This document shows, piece by piece, positions 9,674-19,102 of a stretch of DNA of 64,000 bases (its first letter is position 1; each line of letters starts with the position of its first letter). A program made the translations under genes and the position numbers. The DNA comes from Nematocida parisii ERTm1 (Eukaryota > Microsporidia). The notes under the pieces were generated by a model. It was given only the letters and a program-made list of their open reading frames with translations. It had not been told where the DNA came from and made no database searches. The stretch is from the NCBI RefSeq assembly GCF_000250985.1, contig NW_013524646.1, positions 707,947 to 771,946 of the forward strand. Reading direction: 5' to 3'.

Positions 9674-11437
9674 TTATGACTTGCGGGATATTCTGCAAAG
9701 CACATGCAAGAGCGCATTTGTTCGAGGCTTATCAAGCGGGTGGGAGGCCTCAAGCAGGGAGCCGGACACTTTCTTTGCATACTCCAGAGAAAGAAACATA
9801 AAATACCTAGTGGAGTTCAAAGAGCTGTGCATGACCTCTAGATTTCTTGAGATAATGCGCTTTATATCAGAGGGTGTATTATCGATAAAGGTAGCATCAA
9901 ATGACACAAGACCATTAAAACTCTGTCTGTGTAAAGACATACGGCGAGTATTTTCCTCAGAGAACAAAAGAGGGATACTTAGCGTATAAGAGTTTCGAAC
10001 AGCATGGTATGCCTCCTGCCACTTCTGTATTTCACTGCTGTGCCTAGCAGTGGCTTCTTGCAGGGAGACCACCATATTCTTGGCATTCTCAACTATGTGG
10101 GAGTCTTCCTTTGGCTTCTTGTGCTCCGGCAGCAGTACCAGCTCATTTATTTTCCGCATATACATTGTGCATATTTTCTGTGTATTCTCTTCTGAAAGGC
10201 CGTCTATTTTTACATGCCCATTTGAGATGTACTTGGCAATCCATAGAAGTATCTGCTTTATTCTAGTCTTTGCAGGCTGTGATGCATTTGAGTGCCTGTA
10301 GAAGTCATCTGGTGATACCCCTCCTCCGTATATCTGGTCGTATCCAAACAAACTTTCCCTACGGGTTTGGAACACAGAGCACTTCTTCTTATCAAAGACA
10401 TCCAGAGAAAGTCTTCGTATCTTAACAGGAGACATAAAATCACCAGGGCATATACTCATTCTTTTTCTAATTACACCAGAAGAGTGCTCACTCAAATTGT
10501 GCACACCCTCGCTTAACGGCTCTGTGCGAGCAGAGAGCACTGTCTCTTTAGAAGAATGCCCAGAATTAATGGCCATATTGTGTGGTGTGTAGAGCGCTCT
10601 TTTATGGGTATCTAGCACAGATTTATGCACTGGCGTGTTCTGCATATTTGCTGCAGTGTCTATATCTATAGATCTAATGACAGAAGGTGTAATATTCATT
10701 TCATTAAGACCAGCCACGGTTCTTTTTTCTGCAGGACTGTGCTCTGTGCCTGGCTGGCCTATAGAAGCAGATTTCTCTGATACATTTTCTGGCATGTCCA
10801 CAGGTGGCTCTTTCTCTCGCAGATCTAATACATCCTTGTCCTGGCTGGAAATACTTTGTAGCGGGCTTATTTCTACTGGCGCAGCAGTATTTCTACTCTT
10901 TCCTGCTCTTCCTTTAGCAGCAGAACTTCTGCCTTTTCTTCCTCCAGAAGATGCAGCCGAGATATTTACAAGAGGTTTCTCAGCAGGGAGTGCATCTTCA
11001 GAAGTGGCTTCTACGATAGGCCCAGCCTCATGCGATTCAACACCACTAGACTTGGTAGCAGGCGTTTTGCCTCTTTTGGGTTTAGGTTTTACTGGAACCG
11101 ATGTACTAGAATCTACAGAAGGGGCGGCTGTTCTCTCTTTCTCGGGTTTATCTACCTCAAATGCGAATATAAATTTCTTTTGGCCTGGTTTTATTTTGGG
11201 TGCGTCTTTTAATATTTTTCTTTTGGCTTCTGTGCTTCTTGGAGCAGAGGAAGAAATATTCTTCTTATTTAGCGCTGGCTCTTCGTCATTGAATGTAAAT
11301 GTAAATCCAATCTGTTTGGACTTGGCTTTACTTACCCCCTTTGGGGCTGCAGCGGTCTTGGCAGAAGTCCGTTTTTCCTTACGAGGAAGTGTGTCATTCT
11401 CTGTTGTAAATACAAATCCATTGTATCCCTTATTCAT
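9674..11437 (-). CDS. DSN1: probable kinetochore protein DSN1/Mis13
   Basis: 587 residues. A long disordered Lys/Ser/Ala/Pro-rich N-terminal arm (1-310) is followed by a conserved helical region. The block AKTRIKQILLWIAKYI near residue 390 resembles the DSN1/Mis13 signature R[MLI]KQLLxW. Just upstream are three RxS-type sites (KRMSI, IRRLSL, TRRESLF), the arrangement of Aurora B-regulated basic/serine motifs in DSN1. Both are typical of the Mis12-complex subunit linking the inner kinetochore to Ndc80. The arm carries three spaced copies of an aromatic-alternating motif (see findings). Shares a 25-bp divergent promoter with aspartyl-tRNA synthetase. Alternative: another coiled-coil nuclear protein with a chance match. 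Confidence 0.6.
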   Translation of the reverse strand: MNKGYNGFVFTTENDTLPRKEKRTSAKTAAAPKGVSKAKSKQIGFTFTFNDEEPALNKKNISSSAPRSTEAKRKILKDAPKIKPGQKKFIFAFEVDKPEKERTAAPSVDSSTSVPVKPKPKRGKTPATKSSGVESHEAGPIVEATSEDALPAEKPLVNISAASSGGRKGRSSAAKGRAGKSRNTAAPVEISPLQSISSQDKDVLDLREKEPPVDMPENVSEKSASIGQPGTEHSPAEKRTVAGLNEMNITPSVIRSIDIDTAANMQNTPVHKSVLDTHKRALYTPHNMAINSGHSSKETVLSARTEPLSEGVHNLSEHSSGVIRKRMSICPGDFMSPVKIRRLSLDVFDKKKCSVFQTRRESLFGYDQIYGGGVSPDDFYRHSNASQPAKTRIKQILLWIAKYISNGHVKIDGLSEENTQKICTMYMRKINELVLLPEHKKPKEDSHIVENAKNMVVSLQEATARHSSEIQKWQEAYHAVRNSYTLSIPLLFSEENTRRMSLHRQSFNGLVSFDATFIDNTPSDIKRIISRNLEVMHSSLNSTRYFMFLSLEYAKKVSGSLLEASHPLDKPRTNALLHVLCRISRKS

Positions 11438-11462
11438 TTCAAATTAAACAAAATTTTAGAAG
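11438..11462. promoter_or_regulatory. 25-bp bidirectional promoter, DSN1-like / AspRS
   Basis: The whole space between two divergent ATGs. It contains the near-palindromic AAATTAAACAAAATTTT, so an AAATTT-type element lies close to the start on each strand. Assignment as a shared core promoter is inferred from position. Confidence 0.55.
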
Positions 11463-12863
11463 ATGAAAGTAGAAGAAATGCAAGACTACGCTCAGAAAGA
11501 GATTAGAGAGATAAGTGTGATTTCTGCTGTAGAGGAGCCAATGGCCGCCTCATTATACGGATTTATCAAGAATGTAAGGATGGCTGGAAAGAAGAAGGTT
11601 TTTATAGTGCTGAGGCAGGGACTGGACACAATACAGTGTGTAGGAAGCGTTGTTCCAGGAGAGAGCGAGAAGTACTCCCCCGAGTCATACGTGTGTGTGC
11701 AGGGCAAGATAGTCAATACAAAGACCCCTGTTCACTCATGCACAGTAAAGCATCTTGAGGTGCAGGTGGATGCGGTTTCAGTCCTCTCTGTTTCAAAGGA
11801 TCTTCCATTCCAGCTGAAAGATCTTGACTGGCTGCACAGTGAGAGGGAAAAGGACCCGCAGCTGCCAGTTGTAAACCAGTCAAAGAGGCTGGATGCTAGA
11901 TACATTGACCTACGATCCATGGAGACACAGAGTATATTCCGAGCATACTCCTCTATTCTTAGTCTATTCCGAGCGTACTTAGAGAAGAATCTGTTCATTG
12001 AGATAAAGACCCCAAAGATTCTAAAGGGTTCCTCAGAGGGCGGGTGTGAAGTGTTTCCAGTGAGCTATTTTGGCCAGCCAGCAACACTTGCACAGTCACC
12101 GCAGCTGTACAAGCAGATGGCGATTATTGGGGGCCTTGAAAGGGTCTTTGAGATAGCCCCATGCTTTAGGGCAGAGAACTCTAACACAGGCAGGCACTTA
12201 ACAGAATTCACAGGAGTGGATATAGAGATGGAGTTGAAAAATAAAACATATATAGATTTGGTAAGGTTCATATACGGAATGATTAAGTATGTTTCTGATG
12301 GAGTGCAGGAGAGAAACCAGAAGGAGCTTTCTACTATTAAAGACATTACAGCAGCAGACAATCAGACAGTCATTGCTGAAGCCCCAGTGATAATTACATT
12401 CAAGGAGGGAATAGACATACTGCGAAGCATAGGAAGGGAGGCATCATACACTGAGGACATAGGAACAGAGGATGAAAAGATCCTGGGACAAGAGGTCAGA
12501 AAGAGGTATGGCAGTGACCTGTTTGCCATGATAGAGTACCCAGAGTCTGCCCGTCCATTCTACACCAGCCTTCTTCCCTCTGACAGCAGGTACACCCAAT
12601 CCTTTGACTTTATTCTAAAGGGTGAAGAGATCACATCAGGCGCTGAAAGAATAAACATCCCAGAGACACTCAAAGAGAGAGTGCTTGCCAAGGGAATGAA
12701 GCCAGAGAGTGTGAAGGATTATATAGATGCATTTGAATTTGGAGCACCAAGGCACGGCGGGTGTGGAATAGGCCTGGAGAGAGTTGTAAAGCTGCTCACA
12801 GGGTGCACAGATATACATAAGTGCTCAATGTTCCCCAGAGACCCAAGAAGGCTGCAGCCATAA
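11463..12863 (+). CDS. DPS1: cytosolic aspartyl-tRNA synthetase
   Basis: 466 residues. N-terminal OB-fold anticodon-binding domain (about 25-115), then the class II catalytic core. Motif 2 region FEIAPCFRAENSNTGRHLTE (about 235-254) and motif 3 GIGLERVVKLLTG (about 437-449), ending in the AspRS-typical FPRDPRRLQP. The absence of an AsnRS-like tail pattern and the FRAE/RHL signature fit the archaeal/eukaryotic AspRS clade. Compared with yeast, the N-terminal extension is short. Charges tRNA-Asp with aspartate using ATP. Confidence 0.96.
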   Translation: MKVEEMQDYAQKEIREISVISAVEEPMAASLYGFIKNVRMAGKKKVFIVLRQGLDTIQCVGSVVPGESEKYSPESYVCVQGKIVNTKTPVHSCTVKHLEVQVDAVSVLSVSKDLPFQLKDLDWLHSEREKDPQLPVVNQSKRLDARYIDLRSMETQSIFRAYSSILSLFRAYLEKNLFIEIKTPKILKGSSEGGCEVFPVSYFGQPATLAQSPQLYKQMAIIGGLERVFEIAPCFRAENSNTGRHLTEFTGVDIEMELKNKTYIDLVRFIYGMIKYVSDGVQERNQKELSTIKDITAADNQTVIAEAPVIITFKEGIDILRSIGREASYTEDIGTEDEKILGQEVRKRYGSDLFAMIEYPESARPFYTSLLPSDSRYTQSFDFILKGEEITSGAERINIPETLKERVLAKGMKPESVKDYIDAFEFGAPRHGGCGIGLERVVKLLTGCTDIHKCSMFPRDPRRLQP

Positions 12864-12987
12864 TCTGAATAAATCTAAAGGACACTTCTTATTACATGCC
12901 TAGTATACTTTTATTTTAGCAAAAATTAGAAGTTATTTTGCTTCTTATTAGTTATTTCTTTACAGAGTCATTCATAGCCAGTGCTAA

Positions 12988-13042
12988 TATTTGGCGGCGT
13001 GCGTGCAGAGACAGTTGCCGCGCAGCATGTGCCCGCCAAATA
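12988..13042. other. strong GC-rich stem-loop
   Basis: A perfect 10-bp inverted repeat (TATTTGGCGG / CCGCCAAATA) whose inner arms continue to pair mainly through G-U wobbles (CGTGCGTGC against GCATGTGCC), enclosing an 18-nt loop. It stands out as a GC island in the AT-rich spacer between AspRS and tRNA-Thr. It could be a small structured RNA, a transcript 3'-end hairpin or a processing element; the wobble pairing favours RNA over a DNA cruciform. Confidence 0.45.
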
Positions 13043-13102
13043 ATATATAAGGCGGGAAAATACGTTAACAGCAGGGGTATACCAAAATAGAAGGAAAAAG
13101 AA

Positions 13103-13174
13103 AGCCTCTTGACAGAATCGAACCGCCGACCTTCAGTTTACAAGACTGACGTTATACCACTAAACCAAAGAGGC
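13103..13174 (-). tRNA. tRNA-Thr (anticodon TGT)
   Basis: Reading the minus strand, the acceptor GCCTCTT (13174 inward) pairs with AAGAGGC (13110-13104). The anticodon stem TCAGT/ACTGA encloses loop CTTGTAA, giving anticodon TGT (reads ACA, Thr). The T-arm carries GGTTCGATTC. 72 nt including the discriminator, no intron, no encoded CCA. Confidence 0.93.
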
Positions 13175-13266
13175 TTACACCAAATGGCCTGGCAGGCCCT
13201 CTAGGCGCATCTAAATGCTAATTGGCTAGAGTTTCCAGTTATATTTCGGGCCGTGGGTGTTTCAGG

Positions 13267-14016
13267 ATGGATATGTTCGTAAAGATGAAAAGGCTTCTTC
13301 TGCCAAGAAAGCGGGTAGAAATAAAAACAGAGAGACAGTCACACACACTTAATGGGTTTGTACACTTTCAGAACATTCTAAACAGCCCATATCAGGAAAG
13401 TGCTCAGCATATTAGGCGTGCAGAGAAGGAGTATGCCACTCTTATAGAAGAAATAGAAAAAGCACAGTTGGAGAAAACACACATCTTCCTTCTGTTTACC
13501 TCTCTATTTAAGCAGCTGGATGCGCTTTCCTTCCTTTCTTCAAGCAACGCAGTGCGCGTTCAGATGGTCCGGGAGGAGGTGGAGAACCTTCTAATCCAGC
13601 AGATGTACATATATGTAGAGTATATGGCACAGTGCACTGATACAATGCACAGCAGCCTATTTATTGTGCTGCTTGGCCGTGTGCCTATAAGAAAGGCGGT
13701 AGGAATAAAAATGCGGTACTTTTCCCGGCGAATGCAGAGTATGGATGGCAAGGCCCTAACCATTGTACCTGAGGAGCTTGTGTCCATAATAGAGCGGGAG
13801 TGCACCAGATACTGCACGCTTTTTGGCCTGGATGATCTTTCAGAAGAAAACCTCCTTGTGCTGGATGGGTTCCTATTTTCAATTATAAGAAAGAACCTAT
13901 GCGCATCGCAGGATGCCTTTTTCAGGTTCCGCGAGTGCATTTTAATGCGTGCCAGGTCTTCGTCTGGGTCGAGTGCTTTGCTGAGGAGGTTTAATGTAAA
14001 TTTAGATGCTTTGTGA
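13267..14016 (+). CDS. helical orphan protein
   Basis: 249 residues from the ATG at 13267. The open frame extends upstream without an ATG, so this start is chosen. An ATTTCGGG motif (13243-13250) lies about 17 bp upstream. Mostly helical with a basic N-terminus (MKRLLLPRKR), a hydrophobic central stretch around FLLFTSLFKQLDAL, and a basic Ser/Arg C-terminus (MRARSSSGSSALLRR). No signal peptide, no recognised domain. Confidence 0.65.
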   Translation: MDMFVKMKRLLLPRKRVEIKTERQSHTLNGFVHFQNILNSPYQESAQHIRRAEKEYATLIEEIEKAQLEKTHIFLLFTSLFKQLDALSFLSSSNAVRVQMVREEVENLLIQQMYIYVEYMAQCTDTMHSSLFIVLLGRVPIRKAVGIKMRYFSRRMQSMDGKALTIVPEELVSIIERECTRYCTLFGLDDLSEENLLVLDGFLFSIIRKNLCASQDAFFRFRECILMRARSSSGSSALLRRFNVNLDAL

Positions 14017-14111
14017 GTCTTTATTGTTGTAGGTGCCCCGGTTACCGCTTTTTTTATTGCACTTTATAATTGCCGGGAACTTTTTCCTGTTAAGGCAGTG
14101 CCTAAAAGGGA

Positions 14112-14396
14112 ATGTCTGTGCATATATATACAAGAGAGAATCGTGCAGATTTAAATATGATTAATAATTATAAGATAAAAGAAAATAAAATAAGAAGTAA
14201 GTTACAGGAAATAGAGCAGGACAGACCGAATATTATTTGCTGCATCAAAAACAGAAGCGACACTATGGGGGTTGACAGCCATGGCCTTCCCGTACTAGAA
14301 AGGACCCTTCTTTCTAGCATAGAGTTGGAAAAAAAATATTCCCTATTGATGGACCTATATATGTTATTAAAAGACACGTGTCAATTCGTAATATAA
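14112..14396 (+). CDS. short coiled-coil-like ORF upstream of the Gag-like gene
   Basis: 94 residues (79 if the second ATG at 14157 is used). Charged helical sequence with heptad-like leucines at the C-terminus. The TAA ends two bases before the ATG of the Gag-RNaseH gene, in a different frame; the downstream frame is also open back past this stop. It may be an independent small gene, or the first cistron of a retroelement-derived pair. No family recognised. Confidence 0.5.
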   Translation: MSVHIYTRENRADLNMINNYKIKENKIRSKLQEIEQDRPNIICCIKNRSDTMGVDSHGLPVLERTLLSSIELEKKYSLLMDLYMLLKDTCQFVI

Positions 14397-14398
14397 CC

Positions 14399-15508
14399 AT
14401 GCCGGTTCTGGACGTATTAGACACGAGAAATACCTTTTTCTGGGTTGAGTTCTTTAGGGCACAAATAGTTGAGCATAGGTGGACAGAGCACGACGCCAAG
14501 GTGTTCTTCAAGTGCTCTGTGTCTGATGATATAATTAGGGATATTGTAGGCGATCCATTCGGGCAGCCATTAAGGGACTCTGTTCGCAAGATATATGACA
14601 GGGTGTACACACAAAAGAATGTTTCCAGGCTTAAGAGAAGGCTTAAATCAATCACCTCGGGCGAGTTTATTTCACTGGAGGTGTACAAAGAAGAGCTTTC
14701 TCTGCTGGTTCGTTCATATTCTGTGTCTGTTATGCTTTCATTAGAGGAGCAGAATATACTCATCCAGAAGTACTTTTGGAAGGGTCTTTCCAGCTCTATT
14801 AAGATTCACTTGGCCAGCAGAATAGACAAAGCCTGCTCTGTGGAGAAGATCATTATGGAGGTTTTCCTGTTTAGGCAGAGGATGATTGCGAAGTACGGCA
14901 TAACCGACAAGTTTACAGGAGTAATATATGTTAAGGAGCAGTCAAACTTCGGAATGTTCCCCATGCGCAATGATCGGGCAGAGGAGGAAGAGAACAGGCA
15001 GATAGAGCAGAAGCTAAAGTTTATTGACTGCTCAAAGCCAATAGCTGCTTCATCAGTCATACCATTCCCGTCTACCAAGCCTATACTCACATGCAGTCTT
15101 CCCGTGCTTAAAAAGATTCCTTCAGGTATTGTGGTAAAGAATGACCCTTCAGAAACGCTTAAAAGAATAGTCTTATACTATAAGCATACAAAGAGAGAGA
15201 GGATATTTAAAAAGCCCATCCCAGGAAAGGCGTTCTATGTTTATACTGGATGCATTGATACGTGGGCAGCAGGGATCCTTCTGCAGGACAACAGAATCAT
15301 TTCAATTATGAAGTCTCCACTGATCGGTGAGCAACTTAACTACACTGAAACAGAAAAGTGCATTCTTGCTATAAACAAGTCAAGAAGAATCTTCCGAAAG
15401 GTAACAGGAGATGGTCAGATTGTTTTTAAGAGCGACAAGTACAACTCTTTTATCTACACAACCGAAAAAAACATTAGTTTTATTGATGGTTTCCAGATAC
15501 AGGAATAA
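14399..15508 (+). CDS. domesticated Ty3/gypsy-like Gag fused to degenerate RNase H
   Basis: 369 residues from the ATG at 14399. Residues about 10-165 look like a retrotransposon capsid (Gag): an FFRAQIVEHRWTEHDAKVFF block and later QKYFWKGLSSSIKIHLASRI, the F..GL...I...L pattern typical of Ty3/gypsy Gag. Residues about 275-365 look like the reverse-transcriptase-associated RNase H: VYTGCIDTWAAGILLQDN corresponds to the TDASDxxxGAVLxQ block, QLNYTETEKCILAI to the ExNYSxxEKExLAI block, and FKSDKYNSFIY to the TDHKSL block. The first catalytic Asp is Gly; the later Asp/Glu positions remain. Protease, reverse transcriptase and integrase are absent, and no flanking LTRs were seen. Inferred to be a co-opted host gene rather than an active element. 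Confidence 0.6.
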   Translation: MPVLDVLDTRNTFFWVEFFRAQIVEHRWTEHDAKVFFKCSVSDDIIRDIVGDPFGQPLRDSVRKIYDRVYTQKNVSRLKRRLKSITSGEFISLEVYKEELSLLVRSYSVSVMLSLEEQNILIQKYFWKGLSSSIKIHLASRIDKACSVEKIIMEVFLFRQRMIAKYGITDKFTGVIYVKEQSNFGMFPMRNDRAEEEENRQIEQKLKFIDCSKPIAASSVIPFPSTKPILTCSLPVLKKIPSGIVVKNDPSETLKRIVLYYKHTKRERIFKKPIPGKAFYVYTGCIDTWAAGILLQDNRIISIMKSPLIGEQLNYTETEKCILAINKSRRIFRKVTGDGQIVFKSDKYNSFIYTTEKNISFIDGFQIQE

Positions 15509-16008
15509 GCTTAGAAATGCTGTCTATTATTCCTTCAGCAAGAGCTTGGTGATAAAATAAATTGCTTCAAGCTATGGTTTTTGAGTTATACGCGTTTACA
15601 TACGTACAAATATTTTTCTATTGCTTCTCTTTTATATGATTAGTACATGCATCTCACTAATTGTCCTATAATAATGCAGCTCATTACTATTTCGAAAATA
15701 CCATGCAAGCTGTGCACACTCCCCTTCTACTATGTAATGGGCTAAACCAAAAAGATATGTTTGTGCTATACCTATATTATAAAGAATTTCTGTAGATTAA
15801 AAGATACTCACTCAAATATTTATACTTTATTTATAAATCAGGCGAGTGAGTGCGTTTTTATATGAAGAACCTCTTTACATGTGAAATAGTGGCTTTTTTT
15901 ATTTTCTAATATATAAATATTTTAAAAATAGCCTGCCCATTACTGGCGTATTTATTAGAATAATAGACTTGGCATATAAGGCTTAAATATATTTTATCTT
16001 TATTAAAA
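15509..16008. other. intergenic with a compound hairpin
   Basis: About 500 bp between convergent genes. At 15806-15851 an 8-bp inverted repeat ACTCACTC/GAGTGAGT encloses a second AT-rich repeat (ATTTATA/TATAAAT). Possibly a 3'-end hairpin; otherwise nothing seen. Confidence 0.4.
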
Positions 16009-18321
16009 TTAGATAGGGCGTATTAGGGAAAGAACAGAGAGATAGTTTGTAATAAGCCGTTCTGAAATGTTTTCTCTTATCTTTAGAGGGCCACTCAGCC
16101 TTTCCATGTCCAAGTCTGTTCTTCTGTAGTGAATCACTCGATTGATGAGGGCGTCTGAAATATCGTACTTTGTCTCAAGAGATGACACTAGGTCAATAAT
16201 CAGAGAAGTTGGGTCTTCCACCTCTTTAATGTATGTGATTATAGAGGATATAGGGTGGTTTCCATCCAGTATGGCATCCATGATCTCCTTGGTATTTGAT
16301 ATGTTAAATAGAGGGTTTCTTGTGTTCTCCTTCTGCATTGTGTATGGTGCCATTACTTCCTCCTCATCTATTTTTTCTCCAAGCGTGTCATACATCAGCA
16401 TTAGGCGTATTCTAGACTTGTGTGCTGGGCTAAAACATATTCCCTCGGAGATTGCTTTGCTATACTCTGTTTCTGCTGCCTGTATCTTATATGTGTTTGT
16501 GAACAGAAGAACCTGTTTATCAGTGGTGACAACCAGTTGGTTCTTATCATTTGTAATAAGGAAGTCTCTTGGAGTATATGAAAAGAGTGTTGTGGAAAGA
16601 ATACATGCTGACTGAATATCAATTACCTCCAGCACAGATCCACCGTCTGTGGATGATAGAAGAAGTAGCCAGCTAAGGTCTTCAGTCACTCTCATCTGCA
16701 CAGGCGCCCCCTCCTTCTTTTCAACTGACTTAATTATGTCACCGCTCGGACTAATAATATAGACATGGGTTTGTGTAGAGATGACAAAGTACTTGTATGC
16801 TCGGGTCTCTACGATCCTGGCAATCGCATCTGTCTCTTCTGCCTGGGCGCTGCTTTTTTCTTGCAGGCCTAGAGATCCATTAATTGGTGCTTTAGAAAGA
16901 ACTTCACCATTGTATGAATATACCAGAATTTCTGTTCTGTGAAGAACTGTGAGGGTCTTCTTAATATTGTTGAGAGAGATGGCTAAATATGGCCTTTCCT
17001 CTATTTCGCCCAGAATAAATCCCGACGCCCTTGATGCGATAAGAATCTTTACAGACGCATCTCCACTCTTTATTACCAAAGCAAAACTGTTCCCACAGAA
17101 TGAAATAGCACACTCAATATAATCCTTTGGAGTAGAATATCCTAGCTTTCCTTTGACTTGGGCTATTCCACCAACTGTTTCTTTTAGAGCGTAGATCCCC
17201 TTTGTATAACAGGCAAGAATGTTGTCTCTTGCAATGGAGAGGGATACTGGCTGCCCGTCCCCGCACATTTTAGAAATTTCTTTTAGCTGCTCATCCTTTC
17301 TCAGAGAAAGCGTGTACACTCTGCTGTTTGTAGAAATCACTAAAGTGTCTTTAAGAAACCCCATGCACTGCTTGCTGCCAAATACCACACCAGCACGCCT
17401 TTTCAGCGGGAGTATTTTTTCTTTGTGGCAATCAAGTATCTGGAGTTCATTCCTCTGTGATATGACTAAATATCCTTCACTTCCTATATACCTTGCAGTT
17501 CGCATATGCTCTTCTCCTGCTGCATCTGGTAATTTGTCCTTAAGTGCATGCCTGCTCTTAACAAATCCTTGCTCTAGGCACAGAATAATCACTTCCTTTT
17601 CTGTAAGCACTGCTAGATCCTTGCACTGGCCGCTTCTTCTAAAGTCTAGCGACTGAATCGACTCAAACGAGAACTTCTGTAGAAGAATGTCTTTTTTAAG
17701 CTGCAGAACCAATACATCGCTTGCTGTGCACACGGCTATAATCTCTGCTGAAATAGAGCAGGATACATCAACAACTGGACTACCAATCTCAGTGCATTTT
17801 AAAGTGTAGATGGCTTTATCTTTATCTACTGAGTATATGCACATCTTTCCCTGTGCTACCACAAGAACTTTATTCTTTAAAGTAAGCTGGTGCACACTTT
17901 CAAAGTGCATTGGAATATTGTTTAGTTTTGTTATTGTATACTCCAGCTGCTTCTTCTCAATCTCTTCAATCTCATTCAGATAGATTCTCACAACTGAATC
18001 ATTCAGTACTGCCACTATATACTCATCGCATGGGAAGAATGACTTTATTGCACTCCCTACCTCAATTTCTTGGATCTGCACGCCATTGTTATATATGTTA
18101 ATGGTTGTGCCAGTGGCTGTAGCCACATATCTATCTAGTGTGCAGATGTCTTTAATCGTTTCTCCCTCCTTGCACATTCCAATTGTATTGAGCTTCTCCG
18201 CTCCATACATCGTGTAAAAATTGTTTACTGCAGCTACTACACAGTAAGTATTCCCTATTTTAGCAATTGTAAATCTGGGTCCATCCAAAATGGAGGAAAT
18301 AGGCCGCTTGTACTCGAACAT
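16009..18321 (-). CDS. UTP21: WD40 protein, probable UTP21/WDR36 (SSU processome)
   Basis: 770 residues from the ATG at 18321, which follows an AAAATTTTTT element. The open frame continues upstream across the RFA2 gene but is not plausible there. The N-terminal run FTIAKIGNTYCVVAAVNNFY, then LNTIGMC, IKDICTLDRYVATATGTTI and FFPCDEYIVAVLNDSVVRIY matches the first blades of UTP21. Degenerate beta-propeller repeats continue to about 640. The C-terminal helical region resembles the UTP21 C-terminal domain (a lone helix pair, then YIKEVEDPTSLIIDLVSSL). UTP21 belongs to the UTP-B module of the U3-containing 90S pre-ribosome. WD signature dipeptides are largely lost, so another WD40 UTP protein is possible. 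Confidence 0.6.
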   Translation of the reverse strand: MFEYKRPISSILDGPRFTIAKIGNTYCVVAAVNNFYTMYGAEKLNTIGMCKEGETIKDICTLDRYVATATGTTINIYNNGVQIQEIEVGSAIKSFFPCDEYIVAVLNDSVVRIYLNEIEEIEKKQLEYTITKLNNIPMHFESVHQLTLKNKVLVVAQGKMCIYSVDKDKAIYTLKCTEIGSPVVDVSCSISAEIIAVCTASDVLVLQLKKDILLQKFSFESIQSLDFRRSGQCKDLAVLTEKEVIILCLEQGFVKSRHALKDKLPDAAGEEHMRTARYIGSEGYLVISQRNELQILDCHKEKILPLKRRAGVVFGSKQCMGFLKDTLVISTNSRVYTLSLRKDEQLKEISKMCGDGQPVSLSIARDNILACYTKGIYALKETVGGIAQVKGKLGYSTPKDYIECAISFCGNSFALVIKSGDASVKILIASRASGFILGEIEERPYLAISLNNIKKTLTVLHRTEILVYSYNGEVLSKAPINGSLGLQEKSSAQAEETDAIARIVETRAYKYFVISTQTHVYIISPSGDIIKSVEKKEGAPVQMRVTEDLSWLLLLSSTDGGSVLEVIDIQSACILSTTLFSYTPRDFLITNDKNQLVVTTDKQVLLFTNTYKIQAAETEYSKAISEGICFSPAHKSRIRLMLMYDTLGEKIDEEEVMAPYTMQKENTRNPLFNISNTKEIMDAILDGNHPISSIITYIKEVEDPTSLIIDLVSSLETKYDISDALINRVIHYRRTDLDMERLSGPLKIRENISERLITNYLSVLSLIRPI

Positions 18322-18403
18322 TAAACTGTCTAAAAAATTTTCAGTTGTAATTAAGATTATGCTGCTGTGGTACTTTTGAGCAAAAATTCTCTTTTTTCCT
18401 TGA

Positions 18404-19102
18404 ATGAGTTCACTTCCAATAAGCGAGGCCAGAGGCTCGCAATTTATAAGGCGGATGTCTATAAAGCACGTAAACCAGGTGGAATTTGACGAAGAATCAA
18501 AACAGAACACACAGTTCCGAGGGCAGGGAGTAAGCCTAGTGGAATTAATGGGATGGATAACATTTGAAAATGACTCTGTGCACGGGGGAAAGAAGTTTAC
18601 TCTTTCTGATGGAACCGGATCAATTTCCTGTCTCCTGTGGGATGAGAAAGACTCTTCGCACATAAAAAAGGGGGCGTACATCCGAATAGTAGGAAGTTTA
18701 AGCAAGCACGAGCAAAATATATCGATAAACTGCACCATTACCACACCAATCACCGATGGAAACAGTGTGATGTACCATCTCCTCATGCGCATAATTGATG
18801 CGCCCAGGGCTTCTCAAAAGGACTTATTGGCCCCCTCCATTATTTCAGAAAATGCACCTGCAGCAAGCCAGAGGGAAGAAGTGCATCTGGGTAATTTTAA
18901 AAAGATACATCTTGACATTCTTTCATTCTTCTCTAATAACCAAGGAGAAACTGGCCTGCCCATAAATATCGTAGTAAGCTCTCTCACATCATCTAAAGTA
19001 TACTCTAGCGCGGAGATAGACAGCGGGCTGCAATATCTAATAAGGGCTGGAAAGCTGTTCTACAGCACAGAAGACAAAAAAACGTTAGCACTGTTGGATT
19101 AA
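18404..19102 (+). CDS. RFA2: replication protein A 32-kDa subunit
   Basis: 232 residues. N-terminal Ser/Arg-containing arm, then the RPA32 OB fold from about residue 16 (IRRMSIKHVNQ aligns with the LRPVTIKQI entry strand), running through VELMGWITF, FTLSDGTGSISCLLW and YIRIVGSL. A C-terminal winged-helix protein-interaction domain lies at about 165-232 (KKIHLDILSFFSNNQGETGLPINIVVSSL, ending LIRAGKLFYSTEDKKTLALLD; split here only for description). Second subunit of the single-stranded DNA-binding RPA trimer; the large subunit appears at 49-51 kb. Divergent from UTP21 with 82 bp between starts. Confidence 0.85.
   Translation: MSSLPISEARGSQFIRRMSIKHVNQVEFDEESKQNTQFRGQGVSLVELMGWITFENDSVHGGKKFTLSDGTGSISCLLWDEKDSSHIKKGAYIRIVGSLSKHEQNISINCTITTPITDGNSVMYHLLMRIIDAPRASQKDLLAPSIISENAPAASQREEVHLGNFKKIHLDILSFFSNNQGETGLPINIVVSSLTSSKVYSSAEIDSGLQYLIRAGKLFYSTEDKKTLALLD

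Follow-up and report, generated by a model that had tools for sequence, protein, structure and literature searches.

A probable domesticated Gag gene of Nematocida joins a predicted capsid to a degenerate RNase H-like domain

The window analysed here, a stretch of 64,000 nucleotides of contig NW_013524646.1 from the microsporidian Nematocida parisii ERTm1 (genome of 3.98 Mb in 11 contigs), contains an open frame of 369 codons at 14399–15508 on the forward strand. A reading made earlier from the letters alone (the sequence-only reading) had taken this frame for a complete and intact domesticated Ty3/gypsy gene, with a Gag capsid-like N-terminus joined directly to ribonuclease H (RNase H). The frame is open as claimed, but it is the C-terminal part of a longer gene: it is identical to residues 97–465 of NEPAR04_0519 (P0001 below), a 465-amino-acid hypothetical protein from another N. 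parisii record, whose start codon lies here at 14112, so that the gene spans 14112–15508 and a start at 14399 is ruled out. An open reading frame (ORF) at 14112–14396 agrees with residues 1–75 of P0001, residue 51 being the sole mismatch, and diverges afterwards. The frame is broken in this assembly at a run of eight A residues (14329–14336), the first 75 codons being read in one frame and the remainder in another. Both the second N. parisii record and other species have the gene unbroken, and the break may be genuine or may have arisen during assembly.

A protein search gave six family proteins at an expect value (E) of 1 or less among 1405 candidates, the identities in this search being 55% for N. 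minor NEMIN01_0207, 55% for N. ausubeli NEAUS03_0031 and 57%, 51% and 31% for three others. The six are 447–465 amino acids long and have a common layout, and there are three named Nematocida species among their sources. The five other than P0001 are 447–452 amino acids long and 30–55% identical to P0001 over its length, which rules out a chance ORF. Re-searching with a profile added no relatives among the 7996 candidates scored; polyproteins longer than 1.75 times the query were out of reach, and a parental polyprotein would therefore have been invisible to this search. Viral contigs yielded no relative, and among the first-look candidates scored in its own genome a single match was found, both with the whole frame and with the capsid piece.

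The N-terminal half of the 369-codon frame is predicted to have a Gag capsid fold. Reverse transcriptase (RT) rows dominate the structure matches of the full-length AlphaFold2 model, the mean predicted local distance difference test (pLDDT) of which is 56.5, and the capsid was therefore folded alone. Residues 81–270 modelled in this way reached a pLDDT of 89.4 and a predicted template modelling score of 0.78, and all of the 50 matches listed by Foldseek, as well as all of the 50 listed by VIA-align, are capsids, with modest scores in both cases. The C-terminal domains of the Drt2 and Ty1 p22 capsids are among the fold matches listed, and 53 of the 190 capsid columns are invariant across the family. 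As no Pfam gag family matched any of the six proteins up to E 1, the capsid assignment, which bears out the earlier claim, rests on structure prediction. Pfam Retrotrans_gag finds nothing in the genome, which is uninformative as it is silent in control genomes too. Neither the frame nor the profile matched any solved structure by sequence above chance level. In a viral structure library the RNase H part hit RT or Pol entries, and Gag entries came up at a probability of 0.15 or less only.

The capsid is followed by a linker with pLDDT below 50 at residues 267–333 of the full-length model, a mean identity of 41.9% among P0001–P0005 and 3 invariant columns out of 75. Other parts of a retroelement were looked for and, as the sequence-only reading had held, no protease, RT or integrase was found: CCHC zinc-knuckle, D[ST]G and [YFM]xDD motifs are absent from all six proteins, and Pfam up to E 1 gives, in addition to RNase H families, chance-level matches to UPF0738 (0.22) and RsbRD_N (0.19, one member). 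Nor were flanking long terminal repeats (LTRs) found, also as claimed, with the exception of one 26-nt pair of 77% identity among direct repeats of at least 24 nt within 11000–19000. The protease, RT, integrase and LTRs of an autonomous Ty3/gypsy element were thus not found in the gene or around it.

Several lines of sequence comparison identify the C-terminal part as a degenerate RNase H of Ty3/gypsy type, in agreement with the earlier claim. The frame matches Pfam RT_RNaseH_2 at E 0.0022, below the curated cut-off, and weak matches to Pfam RNase H families are found in all six proteins. When a profile of this region was compared with 172 ORFs (at least 60 amino acids, fewer than 20 X) from six resident element loci of the genome (L023–L028), frames carrying an RNase H took ranks 1–6, ranks 1 and 2 alone passing the HMMER inclusion threshold; the best score was reached by none of 200 column shuffles. 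Profile-profile comparison gave E 2e-5 and a probability of 77%, and fold matches of the full-length model include parts of RT.

The catalytic residues have largely been lost. Passages of PMC5371799 give D358, E401, D426 and D469 as the critical RNase H residues of Ty3; the first three align to G380, C417 and D442 of P0001, and the region of the fourth is missing, with no counterpart in the alignment. The replacement of the first Asp by Gly, which the sequence-only reading had pointed out, was confirmed, as none of the six proteins has Asp at this position (Gly in five, Ile in one). The same reading held that the later Asp and Glu remain, which is mostly incorrect: the third Asp is kept here and in two of the six proteins overall (Glu in two, Lys in one, Leu in one), whereas the catalytic Glu is found in none of them (Cys in five, His in one). 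A conserved Glu does exist, in the motif TEK, but it is residue 415, two residues ahead of the catalytic position 417, and a retained catalytic Glu is thereby ruled out. The four carboxylates of a catalytic RNase H are thus not all present, and the domain should be inactive. The Cys that follows the first Asp position (15251–15253) and the Cys at the Glu position (15359–15361) are each kept in five of the six proteins, and a metal or disulfide role for these two residues is conceivable.

Table 1. Features of the gene and of its neighbour, in positions of the window (residues are those of P0001).
Feature	Positions	Strand	Remark
Pre-capsid N-terminal region, residues 1–80	14112..14350	+	44.0% mean identity, P0001–P0005
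Predicted Gag capsid (CA) domain, both lobes, residues 81–270	14351..14920	+	AlphaFold2, fold matches
Variable linker, residues 271–345	14921..15145	+	Nucleocapsid, protease and RT expected at this place
Degenerate Ty3/gypsy RNase H-like domain, residues 346–446	15146..15448	+	
First catalytic Asp position, codon	15248..15250	+	Gly here
Catalytic Glu position, codon	15359..15361	+	Cys here; Ty3 E401 placed via alignments
Third catalytic Asp position, codon	15434..15436	+	Asp here
C-terminal tail and stop codon	15449..15508	+	Fourth catalytic Asp without counterpart
Utp21/WDR36-like neighbour, outside the gene	16009..18792	-	Synteny and rate yardstick

The neighbour listed last in Table 1 matches the first propeller of WDR36-Utp21 in Pfam with E 9.1e-20 and a score of 71.6 bits, below the cut-off of 80. 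In N. minor the gene NEMIN01_0207 lies beside the Utp21-like NEMIN01_0206 (consecutive locus tags, both on contigs of 345237 bases), and in another source the gene and a Utp21-like protein each lie on a contig of 14480 bases, which is very likely the same one. This shared neighbour is the main evidence that the gene was inherited by descent. In N. major a Utp21-like protein (P0011) was found and no family member; loss, misannotation and a missed gene are all possible.

To compare rates we used the four sources with both genes, which make six pairs, the two N. ausubeli proteins being from different isolates; P0002, P0006, P0011 and P0012 were left out. Pairwise identities are 49.1–61.8% for the whole gene, 56.3–70.0% for the capsid, 47.5–63.4% for the RNase H-like part and 53.8–68.9% for Utp21. 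Utp21 shows the higher identity in five of the six pairs when set against the whole gene, and in three of the six when set against the capsid, which exceeds it in the other three. By the identities of both genes the fourth source is nearest to N. minor, which by Utp21 is itself equally near to N. ausubeli and to the fourth source (60.2% each). The constraint seen in these comparisons is at the protein level.

Five Pol frames are open in the genome, and a further copy is decayed. The resident Pol closest to the gene, L024, matches Ty3 RT at E 2.1e-76, and Ty3 RT is also its nearest solved structure. No resident-element frame scored above the HMMER inclusion threshold with the capsid, linker or pre-capsid profiles, the best E being 1.2, 0.16 and 0.95 respectively, and none of the frames examined thus carries a detectable parent capsid. 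The parent element is either not among the resident loci or too diverged, as far as these profiles can tell, and the idea that the gene is a resident element shortened by deletion was rejected, since neither a second copy, among the first-look candidates scored, nor a capsid match in the resident frames was found. A gag-like and a pol frame are separate in L024, and L023 and L025 each consist of a single long frame. PMC4202319 describes four LTR families in one microsporidian, and published microsporidian Ty3/gypsy elements are described as carrying gag and pol within a single polyprotein; one in-frame deletion could therefore create a capsid-RNase H fusion. As to the state of the resident elements, L025, L026 and L027 (C3:472k, C4:348k and C6:167k) have Pol frames open over at least 472 amino acids with the RT motifs YIDS, YVDT and YYEN; YxDD is degenerate in them and the first RNase H Asp is missing.

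The explanation that we consider best, and somewhat probable as a whole, is that of an exapted host gene with an oligomerising capsid and a structural RNase H-like domain. Its first part, exaptation of a Ty3/gypsy Gag-RNase H frame, is very probable: the domestication proposed by the sequence-only reading is well supported because a single copy and no LTRs were found, the layout is common to all six proteins and the Utp21-like neighbour is conserved in N. minor and very likely in one further source. Of the observations that the sequence-only reading had named as counting against it, two did not arise, as capsid and RNase H folds were found and none of the resident frames examined gave a parent capsid; the third, neutral substitution, was approached through protein identities. 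In this proposal a Ty3/gypsy Gag-Pol frame would be the source, capsid and RNase H would have been joined when nucleocapsid, protease and RT were lost in a single in-frame deletion, and the event would predate the split of the Nematocida species sampled. The second part, the mechanism, is tentative, although the likeliest of those considered. The capsid domain may still oligomerise and possibly form shells. The RNase H-like domain without its catalytic carboxylates might be a structural module or one that binds nucleic acid or a partner, in a role that can be likened to that of the 'connection' domain of retroviral RT. That such shells carry the inactive RNase H-like domain on their surface or inside and use it to bind RNA or RNA/DNA hybrids, as an independently evolved counterpart of Arc, is decidedly improbable.

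An alternative is that the gene is a restriction factor, the capsid of which co-assembles with a resident Gag and poisons its particles, as Drt2, Ty1 p22/p18 and RTL8 do. The presence of Drt2 and Ty1 p22 structures among the fold matches listed agrees with this, as does that of resident elements in the genome, and loss of nucleocapsid and of catalysis would suit a poison subunit. There are good precedents, in that Drt2 restricts Ty1' and is associated with its particles or assembly complexes (PMC10951436), and PEG10 particles are decreased by RTL8 (PMC11684626). However, the capsid has no sequence match to resident Gag frames, and it is conserved about as well as Utp21, whereas an arms race would be expected to make it evolve fast; we regard this alternative as unlikely. 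In a further alternative, a capsid-derived particle like that of Arc would move RNA or protein from cell to cell or from one stage to another, and the RNase H-like domain would bind the cargo. The zinc knuckle is missing from all six proteins, no RNA-binding region was identified, and such a carrier is quite unlikely. A decayed, deleted Ty3/gypsy copy kept by chance, to which the broken frame in this assembly and the weak Pfam scores might point, is hardly credible given five other family proteins of 30–55% identity and common layout, a conserved Utp21-like neighbour, and neither LTRs (11000–19000) nor a second genome copy found.

The best-known domesticated capsids are those of animals, and it is with the gene layouts of the animal genes that the exapted gene proposed here can first be compared. 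Arc/dArc, PNMA and PEG10/RTL share with it the two-lobe capsid fold and a host gene without LTRs, whereas the Nematocida gene is microsporidian and has its capsid joined to an RNase H-like domain without nucleocapsid, protease and RT. In NYNRIN/CGIN1, a host gene described as carrying a retroelement RNase H-like part, that part is joined to an integrase and a NYN domain, whereas the Nematocida one is joined to a capsid. Searches of open-licence papers for NYNRIN or for a retrotransposon-derived gag with RNase H found nothing on either; PMC10085805 concerns domesticated transposases. DRT2 and Ty1 p22/p18 of yeast resemble the Nematocida gene in that they, too, come from the capsid of a fungal retrotransposon. 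DRT2 is a recently described domesticated capsid of Saccharomyces cerevisiae that contains the C-terminal domain of the Ty1' Gag capsid (PMC10951436), but the Nematocida gene has both capsid lobes as well as the RNase H-like domain and is common to several species. The connection subdomain of retroviral RT, finally, has an RNase H-like fold without catalytic residues (passages of PMC5371799), as has the Nematocida domain; it sits inside RT, however, whereas the Nematocida domain follows a capsid.

The gene is a variant within the known class of domesticated Gag genes, and to call it a previously undescribed system, as the sequence-only reading proposed, is too strong. Among the matches listed from the open-licence literature, no title or abstract start pointing to this gene was found. 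That at least three named Nematocida species have retained a capsid, in a lineage known for reduced genomes, would imply that the protein is of use to them, and conservation of the RNase H-like half despite its lost catalytic residues parallels the retroviral connection domain.

Three further loci of the genome may be mentioned. In L028 (C6:54.8k), the decayed copy, an open frame that carries a zinc-knuckle-like motif is followed downstream by an RNase H region interrupted by stops. The other two were excluded from the 172-ORF set: L029 (C5:94.7k) has a sub-threshold RNase H match (E 0.07) within a frame which, by its motif, resembles an apyrase, and the match is taken as chance; L030 (C1:152k) is a 988-amino-acid frame with a weak RVT_1 match and is perhaps, at a guess, a telomerase reverse transcriptase.
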